Source: a virus. From it: 34,341 bases of DNA. Location of the stretch: the IMG/VR virus record IMGVR_UViG_3300029951_000078, positions 1-34,341 of that record; one strand, written 5' to 3'. The position numbers were made by a program, and so were the translations under genes. Below the pieces are notes generated by a model. It was given only the letters and a program-made list of their open reading frames with translations. It was not told the origin of the DNA and made no database searches. Of this stretch, positions 3,439-29,689 are shown piece after piece. Position 1 is the stretch's first letter, and each line of letters opens with the position of its first letter.

Positions 3439-4137
3439 CTATGCGCCGTCGAGCGTTGGCTTCGGTGGAAGCTGGTCGACATCGACGTACTTCATCTTGC
3501 ACATGACCGGGGTCATGCGAACCGCCTCGCGCAGGTAGAAAGGCTGCTCGGGCCGACCGACGATGCCTTCGAGCTCGTGGCCCGGGTAGGTCGACTCGTA
3601 GAACCGGTTCTCCATCTTGTCCCATGCGTCCAGGACGGTCGTGCAGTCCAGGGTCTTGACGACATCGAAGCCGAGGCGATGAGCGACCGCCGACATGCTG
3701 CCGTGCCCGATGAACGGGCATGACAGGTTGATTCCCCAGTGCCCTCCCATCTGGATGTCGAAGGTGATGAATCCCGGGGTGTCCCGGTACCCGCCGCCCT
3801 TCTGGATGCCCGCTCCGTAGCCCTCACCGAACACGATGACATGGGTGTCACCGAACTCGGCACGCCACGCGTCGATGTCGATCAGCGCCATGAGCGAGTT
3901 CCGGATGTGGTCGGTGAACTGCGCGTTGTCGGTCCTGCCCCCGAGATGCACCTTCACGCCATCCCAGTAAAATCGGATGTTCGTGCCGTCGATCTTCTCG
4001 GTCCAGTACCACACCGCGTCCTTAAGGTCGCGGATGGCCTGGGAAGCGAACTGACCGGGCAGCACGAGGTTGCCCTTGGGGTTGCGCTTCCACAAGCTCT
4101 GAATCTTCGGGTACGTTGGAAATGTAATGTCCGTCAC
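3439..4137 (-). CDS. RNA ligase (nucleotidyltransferase superfamily)
   Basis: A 232-residue single-domain polynucleotide ligase. All core motifs are visible in order: motif I EKIDGTN with the likely adenylated lysine K48, then GGRTDNA, motif III VFGEGYGAGIQ, motif IV ELEGIVGRP and motif V MCKMKY. Such ligases charge themselves with AMP and seal 5'-phosphate to 3'-OH RNA ends, as in tRNA repair. The length and motif spacing fit a small Rnl2-like or phage-type ligase rather than an NAD-dependent DNA ligase. Start is a GTG at 4137 with GGAGGG seven bases upstream. It has its own promoter (4167-4195) and a hairpin after it, so it seems to be a single-gene unit. It is separate from the second, split ligase at 10.9-12.4 kb. 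Confidence 0.85.
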   Translation of the reverse strand: MTDITFPTYPKIQSLWKRNPKGNLVLPGQFASQAIRDLKDAVWYWTEKIDGTNIRFYWDGVKVHLGGRTDNAQFTDHIRNSLMALIDIDAWRAEFGDTHVIVFGEGYGAGIQKGGGYRDTPGFITFDIQMGGHWGINLSCPFIGHGSMSAVAHRLGFDVVKTLDCTTVLDAWDKMENRFYESTYPGHELEGIVGRPEQPFYLREAVRMTPVMCKMKYVDVDQLPPKPTLDGA

Positions 4138-8710: not shown

Positions 8711-9916
8711 TCACCTCCTAGCGGCTAGATAATGGACGGCCAGCCAGATCAGAGCGCCGTCCTTGTCGCGGAACTCCCCTGCGTCCTGCGCGTCGACAGC
8801 ATCGCGGAGGATGATCTTGAAGTCAGGACCCGGCTTCATCCCGGCGGCGATCAGGTCGTCCCCGGTCAGGATAGGCTTCTCAGGACCGCTGCTCACGCCC
8901 GCGAGCACCGCCTCCCTCATCCAATCGTCAGACGACCGGACGAAGTGCAGCTCGGCAATGCTCGACGGAACCAGGTCCCGGGCGAGCCTGCGCACACCCG
9001 CAAGGGTCTCAGGCTCGTCAAACGCGGGGATGTTCTCGACTAGCGGAACGATCCTCTTGACGATGTGCCCCGGGCACCCGATGCGCTCCAGGAACGAGAC
9101 AACCAGCTCGGTGCCCAGACCGTCCAGCAGGGCGGCAAACACGAGCACGAGCCTGTCCTCGCCCTTGATCTTGCACTGGTCTGCCCTTGACGCGGTAAAG
9201 TCGGCCCGGAAACCAGAGCACAGGACAAGCTCGGGGAACATCCCGGTCCAGCCCGTATCGTCCAGCGCGTACAGCGCCTTGTGGATGTGGACGCCCTTGG
9301 TGCCGATCTTCTCCCACTCAGTCCACACGCGCTCCTTCGACAGCTCCGTGTACCGGTCCTTGAGGGGGAAGCACACATCGACAGTGAACGGGTGAATCCA
9401 GAAGCCCAGGCGGGCGACGAACTGAATAGCCCGCAGTACCCTCAGAGGGTCGTCACCGAACGTCGAGTCATCGACGTGGCGGATGCACCGCCTCGCTATG
9501 TCACCGAGGCCGTCGTGGAAGTCGAAGATGGTCCCCGAGTCGGGGTCGAGCATGAGGGCGTTCATGGTGAAGTCACGGCGCTTGCACGCGCTGCGCAGGT
9601 CAAGGCGAGAGTCAACCTTGACCTCGAAGCCCCGGTGCCCGGGTCCTACCTTGGAGTCGGTGCGGGGCAGCGACACGTCGATGTCAGTGGTTCCTGACCT
9701 TACCTTGAACACCCCGAACGACTTGCCCGCCTCGGTAACGGAGGCGACTCGCTCCAGGGCTCCCTGTAGCTGCGACGGGGACAGGAAGTAGACCTCGATA
9801 TCGACATCCTTGCCGCCCAGCCCCATGACCTGATCGCGGACGCTTCCTCCGACGATCACGGCGTATCCCCCGGCGGCCTTGATGCCGCGCAGGACAACTT
9901 CCACGTCACTGTTCAT
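8711..9916 (-). CDS. cca: tRNA nucleotidyltransferase (CCA-adding enzyme)
   Basis: A 401-residue class II nucleotidyltransferase that adds or repairs the 3' CCA of tRNA. Motifs run in family order: GGSVRD (23-28), the catalytic D-x-D KDVDIEV (D37, D39), DIDVSLPR, RRDFTMNALM (112-121) and DPLRVLRAIQFVARLGF (155-171). Length matches bacterial CCA enzymes without an HD domain. A poly(A) polymerase is the alternative in the same superfamily. It follows polynucleotide kinase and RNA ligase genes, and the two tRNAs of this window have no encoded CCA, so it plausibly finishes phage tRNAs and repairs damaged ones. Start ATG at 9916 with AAGGAGG four bases upstream. Confidence 0.88.
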   Translation of the reverse strand: MNSDVEVVLRGIKAAGGYAVIVGGSVRDQVMGLGGKDVDIEVYFLSPSQLQGALERVASVTEAGKSFGVFKVRSGTTDIDVSLPRTDSKVGPGHRGFEVKVDSRLDLRSACKRRDFTMNALMLDPDSGTIFDFHDGLGDIARRCIRHVDDSTFGDDPLRVLRAIQFVARLGFWIHPFTVDVCFPLKDRYTELSKERVWTEWEKIGTKGVHIHKALYALDDTGWTGMFPELVLCSGFRADFTASRADQCKIKGEDRLVLVFAALLDGLGTELVVSFLERIGCPGHIVKRIVPLVENIPAFDEPETLAGVRRLARDLVPSSIAELHFVRSSDDWMREAVLAGVSSGPEKPILTGDDLIAAGMKPGPDFKIILRDAVDAQDAGEFRDKDGALIWLAVHYLAARR

Positions 9917-9972: not shown

Positions 9973-10887
9973 CTAGAAGTCGCCCGGCGCAGCTTGCAGG
10001 CACTTGATGCCGAGCTTGTCCCGCCACATGTCGACAACACGGTTGCGGTCATCGATAGCGCACAACACGTTGTAGTACATCCGAACGCTGTCGTTAAACA
10101 GCTCGAACTTGACGATCGCGTCGTTGCGGTTGTCGCCCTCATTGCGCATGATCAGCTCCGAGAAAGGCCCGGCGTAGTGCTCGTGCAGCCACTCAAGAGT
10201 GTCGCCGTAGCACGTGACGGGTCGGCCCGACATGAACACGATGTGAATGCCCAGCGAGGCGATAGCCCGGACGATCATGATCACAACAGGGTCGGGGATG
10301 TCCTCCTTGACGCGGTGGTAGTCGTGAGGTCCGCGACTGACCATGTGCGCCATCGTGCCGTCGATGTCAACGATGACTGCCTTCGGCAGAGTCTCGTCGG
10401 GGATGTACACGTCCGACTCGAAGTCGGCACTGTTCTCGACGGGGAACGGCAGGGGGTACCCATGTGTCTTGACGAACCGCTCGTACATGCCCTCGATCAC
10501 GGACACAGGGACGGGCAGCTTGTCGCGACGGTTCAGGTTGCGCTCGATGCAGGTAGCCAGGGGCACGTTGGTCATGTCCCAGACCTCGACCTCGCAGTCG
10601 AGCGATCGGGCGATCTTGGCAAGGTCGCGTGCGTGGCGCTGGGGCAGGTTAGTGTCCGAGCACACGACGCTGACGCCTCGCTTGAGAAGGTCCTTGATCG
10701 CGGTGTGCGAGATCACGGTAACCATGGCCTCCTGCTCGTGGGAGCCGATGTAGCCCCCGTGGAGCATGTCCCTGATCGAGTCTCGGTTGACCTCAGCGCG
10801 GTTGCGCGGGTCTTCCAGCACCCAGGCTCGTGCCCGGGTTGACTTACCCGAGCCTGGCAGGCCCCGGGTGATGCACAGTGTCGTCAT
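9973..10887 (-). CDS. pnk: Polynucleotide 5'-kinase / 3'-phosphatase (T4 Pnkp type)
   Basis: A 304-residue two-domain RNA-end healing enzyme, nearly the length of T4 Pnkp (301). The N-terminal kinase has the P-loop GLPGSGKST (9-17, K15) with D36 at the general-base position; NLNRRDK supplies the lid arginines. The C-terminal HAD phosphatase has VDIDGTMAH (D174, D176) and later FMSGRP and IDDRNRVV. It would phosphorylate 5'-OH ends and remove 2',3'-cyclic or 3'-phosphates so that the ligase encoded just upstream can seal them, as in T4 repair of tRNA cut by anticodon nucleases. Start ATG at 10887 with GGAGAAGG upstream; 13 bases after the ligase C-terminal half. Confidence 0.9.
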   Translation of the reverse strand: MTTLCITRGLPGSGKSTRARAWVLEDPRNRAEVNRDSIRDMLHGGYIGSHEQEAMVTVISHTAIKDLLKRGVSVVCSDTNLPQRHARDLAKIARSLDCEVEVWDMTNVPLATCIERNLNRRDKLPVPVSVIEGMYERFVKTHGYPLPFPVENSADFESDVYIPDETLPKAVIVDIDGTMAHMVSRGPHDYHRVKEDIPDPVVIMIVRAIASLGIHIVFMSGRPVTCYGDTLEWLHEHYAGPFSELIMRNEGDNRNDAIVKFELFNDSVRMYYNVLCAIDDRNRVVDMWRDKLGIKCLQAAPGDF

Positions 10888-10900
10888 GCCTTCTCCGTTC

Positions 10901-11440
10901 CTAATCAGATGCTGCCGTCATTGACTTGCCCGCCTCGGGCTTGCACGTCGACAGCACGGCCTTGTAGATGTCCTTGCCGTCTAGCAGCATGAACAGCCAT
11001 CCCTTGTACGGGGAGTCCTTGACAGCCAGAGCGAAGTCCTTCCGCTCCGGACGGCCGATGTGGCCTCCGGGGAGGCTGCTGAGAACACGGTAGTACTCCC
11101 TGTAGGTCTCCGCAAGGTTCGTCGCGACCTCCGAGAGAATCTTGGCGTGAGCCTTGAAAACCCAGTCCCAGAACTCCTCAGGGAGGTCCCTCTGGATATC
11201 CGAGAGGGAGTCGCCCGACTTCATGCGCTCCCACACAGCGCGCTCGTTCATGCCCGTCACGATCCGGTGCAGGGCAACGTACTGCGGGTACTTCAACTTC
11301 GCCCTGTTACCCGAAACCAGGAAGCGCACAACAATGCCCTCTGCGTTGTCTCGCTCGGGGTCAGACAAGGCGTCCCTGAGTGTCTTGTAAGGAAACTTGT
11401 TTACAATCCTGAAGGCTTGCGCCCTGACTTCTTCTCCCAT
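10901..11440 (-). CDS. RNA ligase, C-terminal half (split gene)
   Basis: A 179-residue protein carrying only the last ligase motifs: motif IV AEGIVVRF (E34) and motif V RAKLKYPQYV (K48, K50), then a helical C-terminal domain of the T4 Rnl1 kind. It has no adenylation motif; that is on the separate protein at 11813-12427. The start is the ATG at 11440 with GGAAGGGA six bases upstream, lying inside the end of the HNH gene (40-base overlap). The opening residues (EEVRAQAFRIVNKFPYKTL) continue where the N-terminal half leaves off. Either the halves associate into an active enzyme or the ligase is inactivated. Good codon use and an intact ribosome site argue that it is translated. Confidence 0.75.
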   Translation of the reverse strand: MGEEVRAQAFRIVNKFPYKTLRDALSDPERDNAEGIVVRFLVSGNRAKLKYPQYVALHRIVTGMNERAVWERMKSGDSLSDIQRDLPEEFWDWVFKAHAKILSEVATNLAETYREYYRVLSSLPGGHIGRPERKDFALAVKDSPYKGWLFMLLDGKDIYKAVLSTCKPEAGKSMTAASD

Positions 11441-11895
11441 GGTCGTTCCCTTCCTGATAGCCATGTCCTGATGCGATGACAATTAGAGCATACAACGTCG
11501 CACTTAGCTACCTCATCAGCAAGACCCTTCAGGCTCTTGCACTGACTGACGTTGAACTTCTTCTCACCCCGAACGTGGTCGAAATCCATGCATACTGACG
11601 GAAATTCGCGCCCGCAGTCCGCGCAAGGTGCATCCTTAAACGCTAGTACCGCTTCTTGTATCTTCCTGCGCGCATCCTTGTGATGCGCTGAAACACGCCC
11701 CTTATTGTCTGCGTGCCATGTCCGCGTCTTAGCGTTACGGGCTTCCCTGTTCTTGTCCCTGTCGCGCTTCTGGGCGGCTGATCTGCACGCAACGCAGATC
11801 AGCCAGCCCTTGTCATTGACCTTCGTGTTCTCCGGAGTCATCTCGTGGAGACCTCGCCTGCAATAGCCCGGGGTCTTCTGGTAGATCGACGTCAC
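11401..11895 (-). CDS. HNH homing endonuclease inserted in the RNA ligase gene
   Basis: A 164-residue HNH nuclease. N-terminal CRRGLHEMTPENT plus VACRSAAQKRDRDKN is the zinc-binding region common in phage HNH proteins; the core is CADCGREF, MDFDHVRGEKKF and CSNCHRIRTW. Start GTG at 11895 with AAGGAG six bases upstream; this ribosome site is itself coding sequence of the ligase N-terminal half (83-base overlap). The end overlaps the ligase C-terminal half by 40 bases. There is no room for a group I intron core, so this looks like a free-standing homing nuclease that broke into the ligase gene and evolved shared frames at both borders. Confidence 0.8.
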   Translation of the reverse strand: MTSIYQKTPGYCRRGLHEMTPENTKVNDKGWLICVACRSAAQKRDRDKNREARNAKTRTWHADNKGRVSAHHKDARRKIQEAVLAFKDAPCADCGREFPSVCMDFDHVRGEKKFNVSQCKSLKGLADEVAKCDVVCSNCHRIRTWLSGRERPWEKKSGRKPSGL

Positions 11896-12427
11896 TGCCT
11901 GTCTCCTTATCGATGATTCCTATGAGGACCAGGCCCTCCCAGTCGTAGGATAGCACGATACGGTTCCAGCTAGCAAGTATCTCGAACAGGTAAGTGTACT
12001 TCGGGTTGAAGTATCCGTAATCGGCATACTTCCTGAACCACGCAGTAGCCCATAGGGCCTGGTCAGAAGCGAAAGACCCCCGAGTCGCCACTGCGTAACC
12101 TCCGGATGGAACGGGGTATAGTATCCCCAGTGACCCATCTTCCTTGTTCGTGACCTCTACCTGCGCGTCAAGATCCAAGCTGCCCGGAGGAAGCTGCTCG
12201 TAGTTGAAGAACTTCGCGAACGGCCTGGCTACTACCTCAAGGGTGTCGACGTTGTAGATCAGGCCACGGCACGCCAGGGTCACGTCGTCCCAGTTCGACT
12301 CCCACGCCGTCTTCTCGGTGTAGTTCAGGATCGCCAGCGGCTCGGTCGGGTGACTCTGCCTGCGGACGTAGCCGTCCTCAAGCGCGTTGGCCAGGTCGGT
12401 GATCGAGAACATGTCATGCAGCTTCAT
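11813..12427 (-). CDS. RNA ligase, N-terminal half (split gene, Rnl1-like)
   Basis: A 204-residue protein with the first ligase motifs: motif I VTNKEDGSLGILY with nucleophile K95, ATRGSFASD, and the motif III/IIIa region YLFEILASWNRIVLSYDWEG. This order and the KEDGS form match T4 Rnl1-type tRNA-repair ligases. Homology ends about DKETGSDVDL; the last 25 residues (from PEDPGLLQARSPRDDSG on) are read out of frame from HNH sequence and are not ligase-like. Motifs IV and V are on the product of 10901-11440. Start ATG at 12427 with AGGAGGG four bases upstream, behind its own promoter. Confidence 0.78.
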   Translation of the reverse strand: MKLHDMFSITDLANALEDGYVRRQSHPTEPLAILNYTEKTAWESNWDDVTLACRGLIYNVDTLEVVARPFAKFFNYEQLPPGSLDLDAQVEVTNKEDGSLGILYPVPSGGYAVATRGSFASDQALWATAWFRKYADYGYFNPKYTYLFEILASWNRIVLSYDWEGLVLIGIIDKETGSDVDLPEDPGLLQARSPRDDSGEHEGQ

Positions 12428-12450: not shown

Positions 12451-12479
12451 AATTTACTCTCGTCAGCGACCAATGTCAA
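12451..12479 (-). promoter_or_regulatory. Promoter, TTGACA-17-TAAATT
   Basis: TTGACA (12479-12474), 17 bases, TAAATT (12456-12451) on the minus strand. It heads the RNA-repair cassette (split ligase, kinase, CCA enzyme). A perfect GC hairpin (12480-12501) sits directly upstream of the -35 box. Confidence 0.7.
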
Positions 12480-17480: not shown

Positions 17481-17528
17481 TGGCGGACGCCTGCCAGTTG
17501 TGCGCCGATCGGCTGGAGGGTCGTCCGG

Positions 17529-17607
17529 TGCTGGACCTAGGGATCGAACCTAGCGTGCCTAAGGCGGCAGGGTTACAGCCTGCCTGGTACTCCAGTACCT
17601 GCCCAGC
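17529..17607 (-). tRNA. tRNA-Tyr (GTA)
   Basis: Minus-strand tRNA: acceptor GCTGGGC pairs with GTCCAGC; anticodon stem GCAGG/CCTGC encloses CTGTAAC, anticodon GTA; T arm CTAGG-TTCGATC-CCTAG. A long variable arm (GCC-TTA-GGC) makes it class II, as expected of bacterial tRNA-Tyr. An extra T-A pair could extend the acceptor to eight pairs (17608). The D arm is short and position 8 is A instead of the usual T. After the discriminator A come CCG, so CCA is not encoded and must be added. Confidence 0.8.
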
Positions 17608-17608
17608 A

Positions 17609-17748
17609 TGGCCCGGTCAAGCTTATTTATACTCGTCCCCGGGCGGACGGGTCCCCGCTTACTACCCAATAGCAGCCAGGAGAGGGTGAACTCGGGCGCT
17701 TATGCGGCTTATCCAGACGACTGGACCTGAGCAGACATCTCTGTCTCG
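17609..17748 (-). other. 140-base spacer between tRNAs, structured but unidentified
   Basis: No ORF with a ribosome site and no tRNA T-arm motif is visible. Several short stems occur (TCCAG-TCGT-CTGGA; CGC-ATAA-GCG; CGTCC with GGACG) and CGGGGAC is repeated. It lies between two tRNA genes under one promoter, so it is probably transcribed; it could be a decayed tRNA, a small RNA or a processing spacer. Confidence 0.35.
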
Positions 17749-17832
17749 GGTGTGCGACGGGCTTCGAACCCGCGAGTGCGTTACCGCCCAGCTTCACAGG
17801 CTGGTACCTAATGCCTACCGGTTTCACACACC
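17749..17832 (-). tRNA. tRNA-His (GTG) with long variable arm
   Basis: Minus-strand tRNA: GGTGTGTG pairs with CGCACACC in eight pairs, including G at -1 opposite C73, the identity mark of tRNA-His. Anticodon stem CCAGC/GCTGG encloses CTGTGAA, anticodon GTG. The T arm is GCGGG-TTCGAAG-CCCGT. The variable region is 14 bases (GCG-GTAA-CGC stem plus ACTC) and the D stem three pairs, a class II layout not expected for tRNA-His. CCA is not encoded (CGA follows C73). First gene after the promoter at 17852-17880. Confidence 0.8.
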
Positions 17833-29221: not shown

Positions 29222-29689
29222 ATGATGAACACCGAGAAGCTATGTGAAGCAAGGCGTAGGCTGATGGCACGCAGAATCATTGACGATGCAGGGTGCTGGA
29301 GGTACGTGAACCGCAAGGGCGAGATGCCGAACCGCTATGTCAAGCTACTGATCGATGGAGAGCTAGACGGTGCGCACAGGTGGTCCTATCGTGCGTTCGT
29401 AGGACCGATCCCTGAAGGACAACTAATCCGCCACGCATGCGATACTCCTGGGTGCTGGAACCCTGCACATCTTTCGACTGGAACCCAGGCTCAGAATATT
29501 AACGATGCCGTCCTACGTGGGCGCACGGCAACGAACCGAGGTGGGGCCAAGCTCAGCGCCGACCAACTCCGTGCAATCATAGAGACCCCCAGGTACTTCG
29601 GAATGGTGAACGATCTGGCAGTGGCGTACGGAGTTCACAGAACCACTATTACGAATGTTTTGCACGGTCGAACATGGGGTGGTGTGTGA
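29222..29689 (+). CDS. HNH endonuclease with C-terminal DNA-binding helix-turn-helix
   Basis: A 155-residue HNH_3-type nuclease. The nuclease part runs DDAGCWRYVNRKGEMPNRY, AHRWSYRAF, LIRHACDTPGCWNPAHL and NINDAVLRGR: the Arg-His, Cys-x4-Cys and Asn-Pro-x-His signature. Residues 108-155 (GGAKLSADQLRAI; DLAVAYGVHRTTITNVLHG) form a helix-turn-helix for target recognition. Probably a mobile homing nuclease. The ATG follows a TAAACT -10-like box by six bases with no ribosome site of its own, so it may be leaderless. TGATG overlap with the next gene. Confidence 0.82.
   Translation: MMNTEKLCEARRRLMARRIIDDAGCWRYVNRKGEMPNRYVKLLIDGELDGAHRWSYRAFVGPIPEGQLIRHACDTPGCWNPAHLSTGTQAQNINDAVLRGRTATNRGGAKLSADQLRAIIETPRYFGMVNDLAVAYGVHRTTITNVLHGRTWGGV

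Follow-up and report, generated by a model that had tools for sequence, protein, structure and literature searches.

We found that, as read from its sequence, the gene for a T4 Rnl1-type RNA ligase is split by a free-standing, putative HNH homing endonuclease gene into two separately translated halves in an uncultured phage of actinobacterial type. The locus lies in the window analysed here, a stretch of 34,341 nucleotides. Phage genes split by homing endonuclease genes (HEGs) are already known, and the RNA ligase is a new example: searches of the open-access literature turned up no RNA ligase split by an HEG, in line with the initial annotation, where a split tRNA-repair ligase was expected to be a new case. 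Our full account, in which the HNH gene occupies the loop region between ligase motifs IIIa and IV, the split allele arrived by homing and the two halves assemble into a tRNA-repair ligase, seems to us to have slightly better than even chances of being correct. The locus comprises the following elements.

12427-11813, minus strand: ligase N-half (204 aa, ATG start), Rnl1-type, with motifs I-IIIa
11896-11908, minus strand: ribosome-binding site of the HNH gene (AAGGAG, 7 nt spacing; duplex energy -8.2)
11895-11401, minus strand: HNH endonuclease gene (164 aa, GTG start), inside the ligase gene
11776-11804, minus strand: perfect hairpin with an 11-12 bp stem, within HNH codons, ~9 nt past the stop of the N-half
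11441-11455, minus strand: ribosome-binding site of the C-half (AGGAAGGG, within HNH codons; duplex energy -7.0)
11440-10901, minus strand: ligase C-half (179 aa, ATG start), with motifs IV and V and the C-terminal domain

Re-computation of the ORFs and frames reproduced the annotated layout exactly to the base. The HNH ORF overlaps the N-half by 83 nt and the C-half by 40 nt and is read in a different frame from the one common to both halves. Beyond the N-half's own stop, the ligase frame contains nine stop codons between the halves. Residues 1-186 of the N-half are ligase-derived, and residues 187-204 are encoded by HNH-derived DNA. Both internal ribosome sites were located where they had been proposed, that of the HNH gene in ligase codons (AAGGAG coincides with K-E of a K-E-T-G stretch) and that of the C-half in HNH codons, and the HNH stop codon falls within codons of the C-half. 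Ranked by anti-SD pairing among all minus-strand start codons, the HNH gene (-8.2) and the C-half (-7.0) are in approximately the best 6% and 9%, respectively; the pairing is strongest for the N-half (-12.7), and the value for PNKP, the next gene downstream (-6.6), is comparable to that of the C-half. No regulatory hairpin was found over the ribosome site of the HNH gene or the C-half, as folding there was no better than in shuffles. Fusion of the halves by ribosomal frameshifting was rejected, because two opposite shifts through the HNH gene would be required, as judged from the frames.

The halves correspond to neighbouring stretches of a single protein family, with no overlap between them, as expected of an HEG-split gene. 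Instead of aligning to an independent full-length family each, both matched a common RNA ligase profile, PHROG 562, the N-half at profile positions 7-194 (E = 8.5e-47) and the C-half at 208-367 (E = 3.8e-18); the N-half also matched Pfam PF09511 (RNA_lig_T4_1, E = 1.8e-13). Motifs I (KEDGSLG), III (FEI) and IIIa (GLVLIG) reside in the N-half, and motifs IV (AEGIVV) and V (KLKY) in the C-half, in agreement with the distribution given in the initial annotation. In the closest relative, a 110-kb IMG/VR contig (L009), residues 1-196 of the intact ligase align to the N-half and residues 201-364 to the C-half. At most ~4 residues were therefore lost at the joint, which bears out the earlier impression of a small loss, and no large segment is missing relative to intact homologues. 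HNH-family homology starts at residue 10 of the HNH protein (~11868) and stops near residue 144-153 (11464-11437); these borders, combined with the L009 alignment, imply that the ligase-derived parts join with essentially zero loss.

The predicted structure of the L009 ligase (mean pLDDT 88) had T4 Rnl1 as its best structural match, and the assignment to the T4 Rnl1 type thus relies on both sequence and fold together with motifs I, III, IIIa, IV and V, the fold being that of the intact sister. In this model, the split site falls in a helix-loop stretch (~184-205) between the strands of motif IIIa (167-175) and motif IV (220-225). Motifs I and III belong to one half and motifs IV and V to the other; from what is known of this enzyme family, neither would be expected to form the entire active site by itself. 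T4 Rnl1 itself (PDB 2C5U, 5TT6, 9DO4), which belongs to the same family by sequence and fold and carries motifs I-V, is a single chain, whereas the ligase in the window is encoded by two ORFs, with the break between motifs IIIa and IV.

The ORF between the halves matched PHROG 3106 (E = 3e-25), PHROG 2255 (E = 1.8e-21) and PHROG 4234, and its HNH core residues aligned intact (MDFDHVRG...CDVVCSNCHRIRT); the Pfam HNH model gave only E = 3.4. The family match with the catalytic core kept identifies the product as a putative HNH homing endonuclease. One could argue that splicing removes the insert as an intron, of group I or another type, with the HNH gene as its ORF, since spliced group I introns exist in actinophages, one of them only 265 bp long (PMC3706429), and joining the halves would preserve the reading frame. 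Nevertheless, an Rfam search of the insert yielded no group I (RF00028) or group II match even at E values up to 10, while the same search detected the proven actinophage group I introns of BAKA (E = 1e-4) and LittleE (E = 2e-5). In addition, HNH homology (~11868-11464) occupies nearly the whole insert. We thus consider a spliced intron highly improbable, and the absence of a conserved group I core agrees with the view, expressed at the outset, that there is no room for one. Splicing had been named as an outcome that would overturn the split: at the level of sequence no intron is detectable with working controls, and a spliced mRNA is a matter for the RNA level. The introns of the Cluster J mycobacteriophages (BAKA, LittleE) resemble the present case in interrupting actinophage genes, one of them with a homing endonuclease gene, but they are of group I, detectable with RF00028 and shown to splice (PMC3706429), whereas the insert in the window is without such a core. 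A split intein was likewise rejected, the tails on the halves (~18 and 4-15 aa) being too short for intein halves. As in other HEG-split genes, then, nothing in the sequence indicates that the insert is removed by an intron or an intein.

Relatives without the HNH gene, named in the initial annotation as a check on the split, do exist. The closest, L009, has one uninterrupted ligase without the HNH gene in a similar gene order (exonuclease, ligase, PNKP, CCA enzyme); in the window, unlike in L009, two additional genes separate the ligase from the exonuclease. An HEG between the halves and relatives lacking it together characterise an HEG-split gene. We surveyed viral and prokaryotic genome collections and four phage records, taking the best matches per scan, by which rarer splits may have been missed. 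Among the matches listed, the ligase is in a single open frame at 321 loci (redundant) and split by an insert in the window only; one locus lacks the C-half by deletion, and another is ended by a contig edge. No second split relative was found among these matches, motif-specific pattern scans were also empty, and persistence of the split is therefore not directly shown. As the junction was found in a single contig and in no second sample, an assembly chimera or sequencing artefact might be suspected in metagenomic data. However, the ORFs overlap and ribosome sites are present on both sides of the HNH gene, the codon signature described below continues into the flanks, and the ligase sequence is continuous across both sides with no duplication or loss; an artefact is, in our view, scarcely credible.

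Codon usage bears on how the split allele arrived. GC3 is ~0.86 in the other phage genes and 0.64 in the HNH gene (codon usage z = -8.7), and the ligase sequence on each side of the insert is also low in GC3.

11870-12202, minus strand: upstream low-GC3 ligase flank (~330 bp; N-half residues 76-186; z = -6.66)
11321-11440, minus strand: downstream low-GC3 ligase flank (~60-120 bp; C-half residues 1-40; z = -3.88)

The upstream value is below all 672 of 672 background windows (minimum -3.62), with a change point at ~12241-12200. The downstream value is borderline relative to the 1st percentile of the background (-3.83; minimum -4.61), with a change point at ~11380 (permutation p = 0.018). Residues 1-75 of the N-half and 41-179 of the C-half have normal GC3. 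The contrast between inner and outer parts (-0.207) exceeds the value in each of 156 intact relatives (mean -0.013, sd 0.048). These observations suggest that the HNH gene came together with its ligase flanks, by homing with co-conversion, from a donor phage of other codon usage; flanks are known to be co-converted when T4 introns and free-standing endonucleases home (PMC2988022). We infer this arrival by homing with moderate support. If the flanks were co-transferred with the HNH gene, the donor ligase was probably split already.

Alternatively, the low-GC3 tract may reflect a relaxation of codon selection or a peculiarity of this ligase region in the lineage, and the HNH gene may have inserted directly here, a reading that competes with the arrival step and not with the split itself. 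GC3 also dips, less strongly, in this region of the sister L009 (contrast -0.114, among the lowest of the intact relatives), so that the dip may be partly a property of the lineage, and local change points comparable to these occur towards the ends of a few background genes. On the other hand, the tract lies on both sides of the HNH gene and shares its codon bias, the upstream flank is beyond the entire background, and none of the 156 intact relatives reaches the contrast. We regard direct insertion as the less probable course, though one to be taken seriously. If co-conversion did occur, it is tempting to speculate that the pre-split gene itself is the mobile unit, in which the HNH gene spreads the split allele of a two-subunit tRNA-repair ligase between phages and matching flanks keep the halves compatible; we put this forward tentatively, as an idea with rather less than an even chance.

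Are the halves under constraint? Positions conserved at 97% or more among 134 non-redundant intact relatives, here called near-invariant, are kept at 26 of 27 in the N-half and 11 of 11 in the C-half, the single exception being a Pro to Ser change just past motif III. At residues 152-153 of the N-half (~11974-11969), in the low-GC3 tract, a near-invariant Tyr-Pro is replaced by Ala-Ser. Root-to-tip and terminal branch lengths and the C/N divergence ratio were unremarkable in a set of 135 sequences, and identities to L009 were 53% for the N-half, 47% for the C-half, 50% for PNKP, 57% for the CCA enzyme and 64% for the exonuclease; neither branch lengths nor these identities revealed faster evolution of either half. 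Ordinary divergence and the kept residues fit a maintained coding function and fit a recent break as well. The foreign codon usage indicates that the arrival was recent, and the kept motifs thus need not result from selection exerted in this genome since the split. A pseudogene betrayed by accelerated evolution was rejected, since no acceleration was found; a recent break would leave none.

The surrounding genes provide the functional context.

9973-10887, minus strand: PNKP, the next gene downstream (PF25109, E = 1.5e-47; PF13671)
8711-9916, minus strand: CCA tRNA nucleotidyltransferase-like gene (PF01743, E = 3.9e-20; PHROG 2244)
3439-4137, minus strand: second RNA ligase gene, uninterrupted, Rnl2-like family (PF09414, E = 3.8e-12; PHROG 548)
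12451-12479, minus strand: promoter-like site before the N-half (TTGACA-17-TAAATT; consensus match only)

Together with tRNA genes, the ligase, PNKP and the CCA enzyme constitute a predicted tRNA-repair set. Genes for tRNA-Tyr and tRNA-His are located at 17527-17831 (minus strand). Six promoter-like sites were detected in the 6.1 kb scanned, versus 1.2 expected in shuffles, and those before the N-half and the CCA gene are consistent with one transcript covering the N-half, the HNH gene, the C-half and PNKP. Strong, repeated sites of this form (TTGACA-17/18-TA(GA/AA)xT) lie on the minus strand at 12956-12927, 9972-9944 and 8543-8515 as well as at 12479-12451, several just before genes.

The second ligase carries nucleotidyltransferase motifs and is apparently intact; a homologue with 50% identity is found in the sister contig G001, and the sister L009 genome also encodes one. 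This gene is a possible backup, and loss of the split enzyme might thus be tolerated. A recent HNH insertion may simply have broken the ligase, leaving the halves as inactive coding remnants. The un-ameliorated codon usage of the HNH gene, the intact Rnl2-like gene in this phage and in G001, and the Tyr-Pro to Ala-Ser replacement in the N-half are in line with such a loss. Against it, (i) the C-half is equipped with a separate start codon and ribosome site and is free of stops and frameshifts, (ii) it retains every near-invariant residue and shows ordinary divergence, and (iii) if the flanks came with the HNH gene, the split allele pre-existed elsewhere. A broken ligase accordingly strikes us as possible and somewhat unlikely, and the halves probably form an active enzyme.

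The functional account would then run as follows. The HNH protein would cleave an uninterrupted ligase gene in a recipient phage, and repair of the break would copy the HNH gene with its flanks (~330 bp upstream and 60-120 bp downstream) from a donor carrying the split allele. The N-half, HNH gene, C-half and PNKP would presumably be co-transcribed. The N-half, with the nucleotidyl lysine and motifs I, III and IIIa, and the C-half, with motifs IV and V and the C-terminal domain, would associate non-covalently into one active site, and the assembled ligase would work with PNKP to mend cleaved tRNAs.

HEG insertions split nrdA of Aeromonas phage Aeh1, T4 gene 60 and gene 43 of Aeromonas phage 25 (PMC2988022). 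The comparison of the present layout with nrdA/mobE of Aeh1, drawn in the initial annotation, is apt (PMC2988022): in both, an HNH gene lies in a critical phage gene and two polypeptides are translated separately. Split nrdA reportedly still yields a functional enzyme (PMC2988022, citing Friedrich 2007). Unlike nrdA, the host gene here is an RNA ligase known from sequence alone; a hairpin over the ribosome site has been reported for mobE, whereas none is evident for the HNH gene in the window. In gene 43 of phage 25 (seg43) and gene 60 of T4 (mobA), a homing endonuclease gene likewise accompanies an enzyme gene in two ORFs (PMC2988022), but the host genes differ and the phage 25 endonuclease is of seg type. 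The gene 43 halves are active, and the split there may predate entry of the HEG (PMC2988022).

Few phage genes are both HEG-split and known or thought to be functional (nrdA, DNA polymerase gene 43 and topoisomerase gene 60). A split RNA ligase would enlarge this group by an enzyme that is small and simple to assay. If the halves function, the nucleotidyltransferase fold would tolerate a break between motifs IIIa and IV, a position that split-ligase tools could exploit. Should co-conversion have taken place, the locus, an unusually readable trace of the possible arrival of an allele, would show how a split allele spreads.

Three minor observations were also made. The hairpin at 11776-11804 (-20.2 kcal/mol, z = -5.0) could stabilise the end of the N-half mRNA or slow ribosomes. 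The surveyed locus L211:2989-3819 is a truncated ligase with its C-terminal half deleted and no insert, while its near relative L208 is intact; the truncation could be genuine or an assembly error. Lastly, an unrelated second endonuclease gene, HNH_3, is present in the window at 29222-29689 on the plus strand, opposite to the ligase locus.
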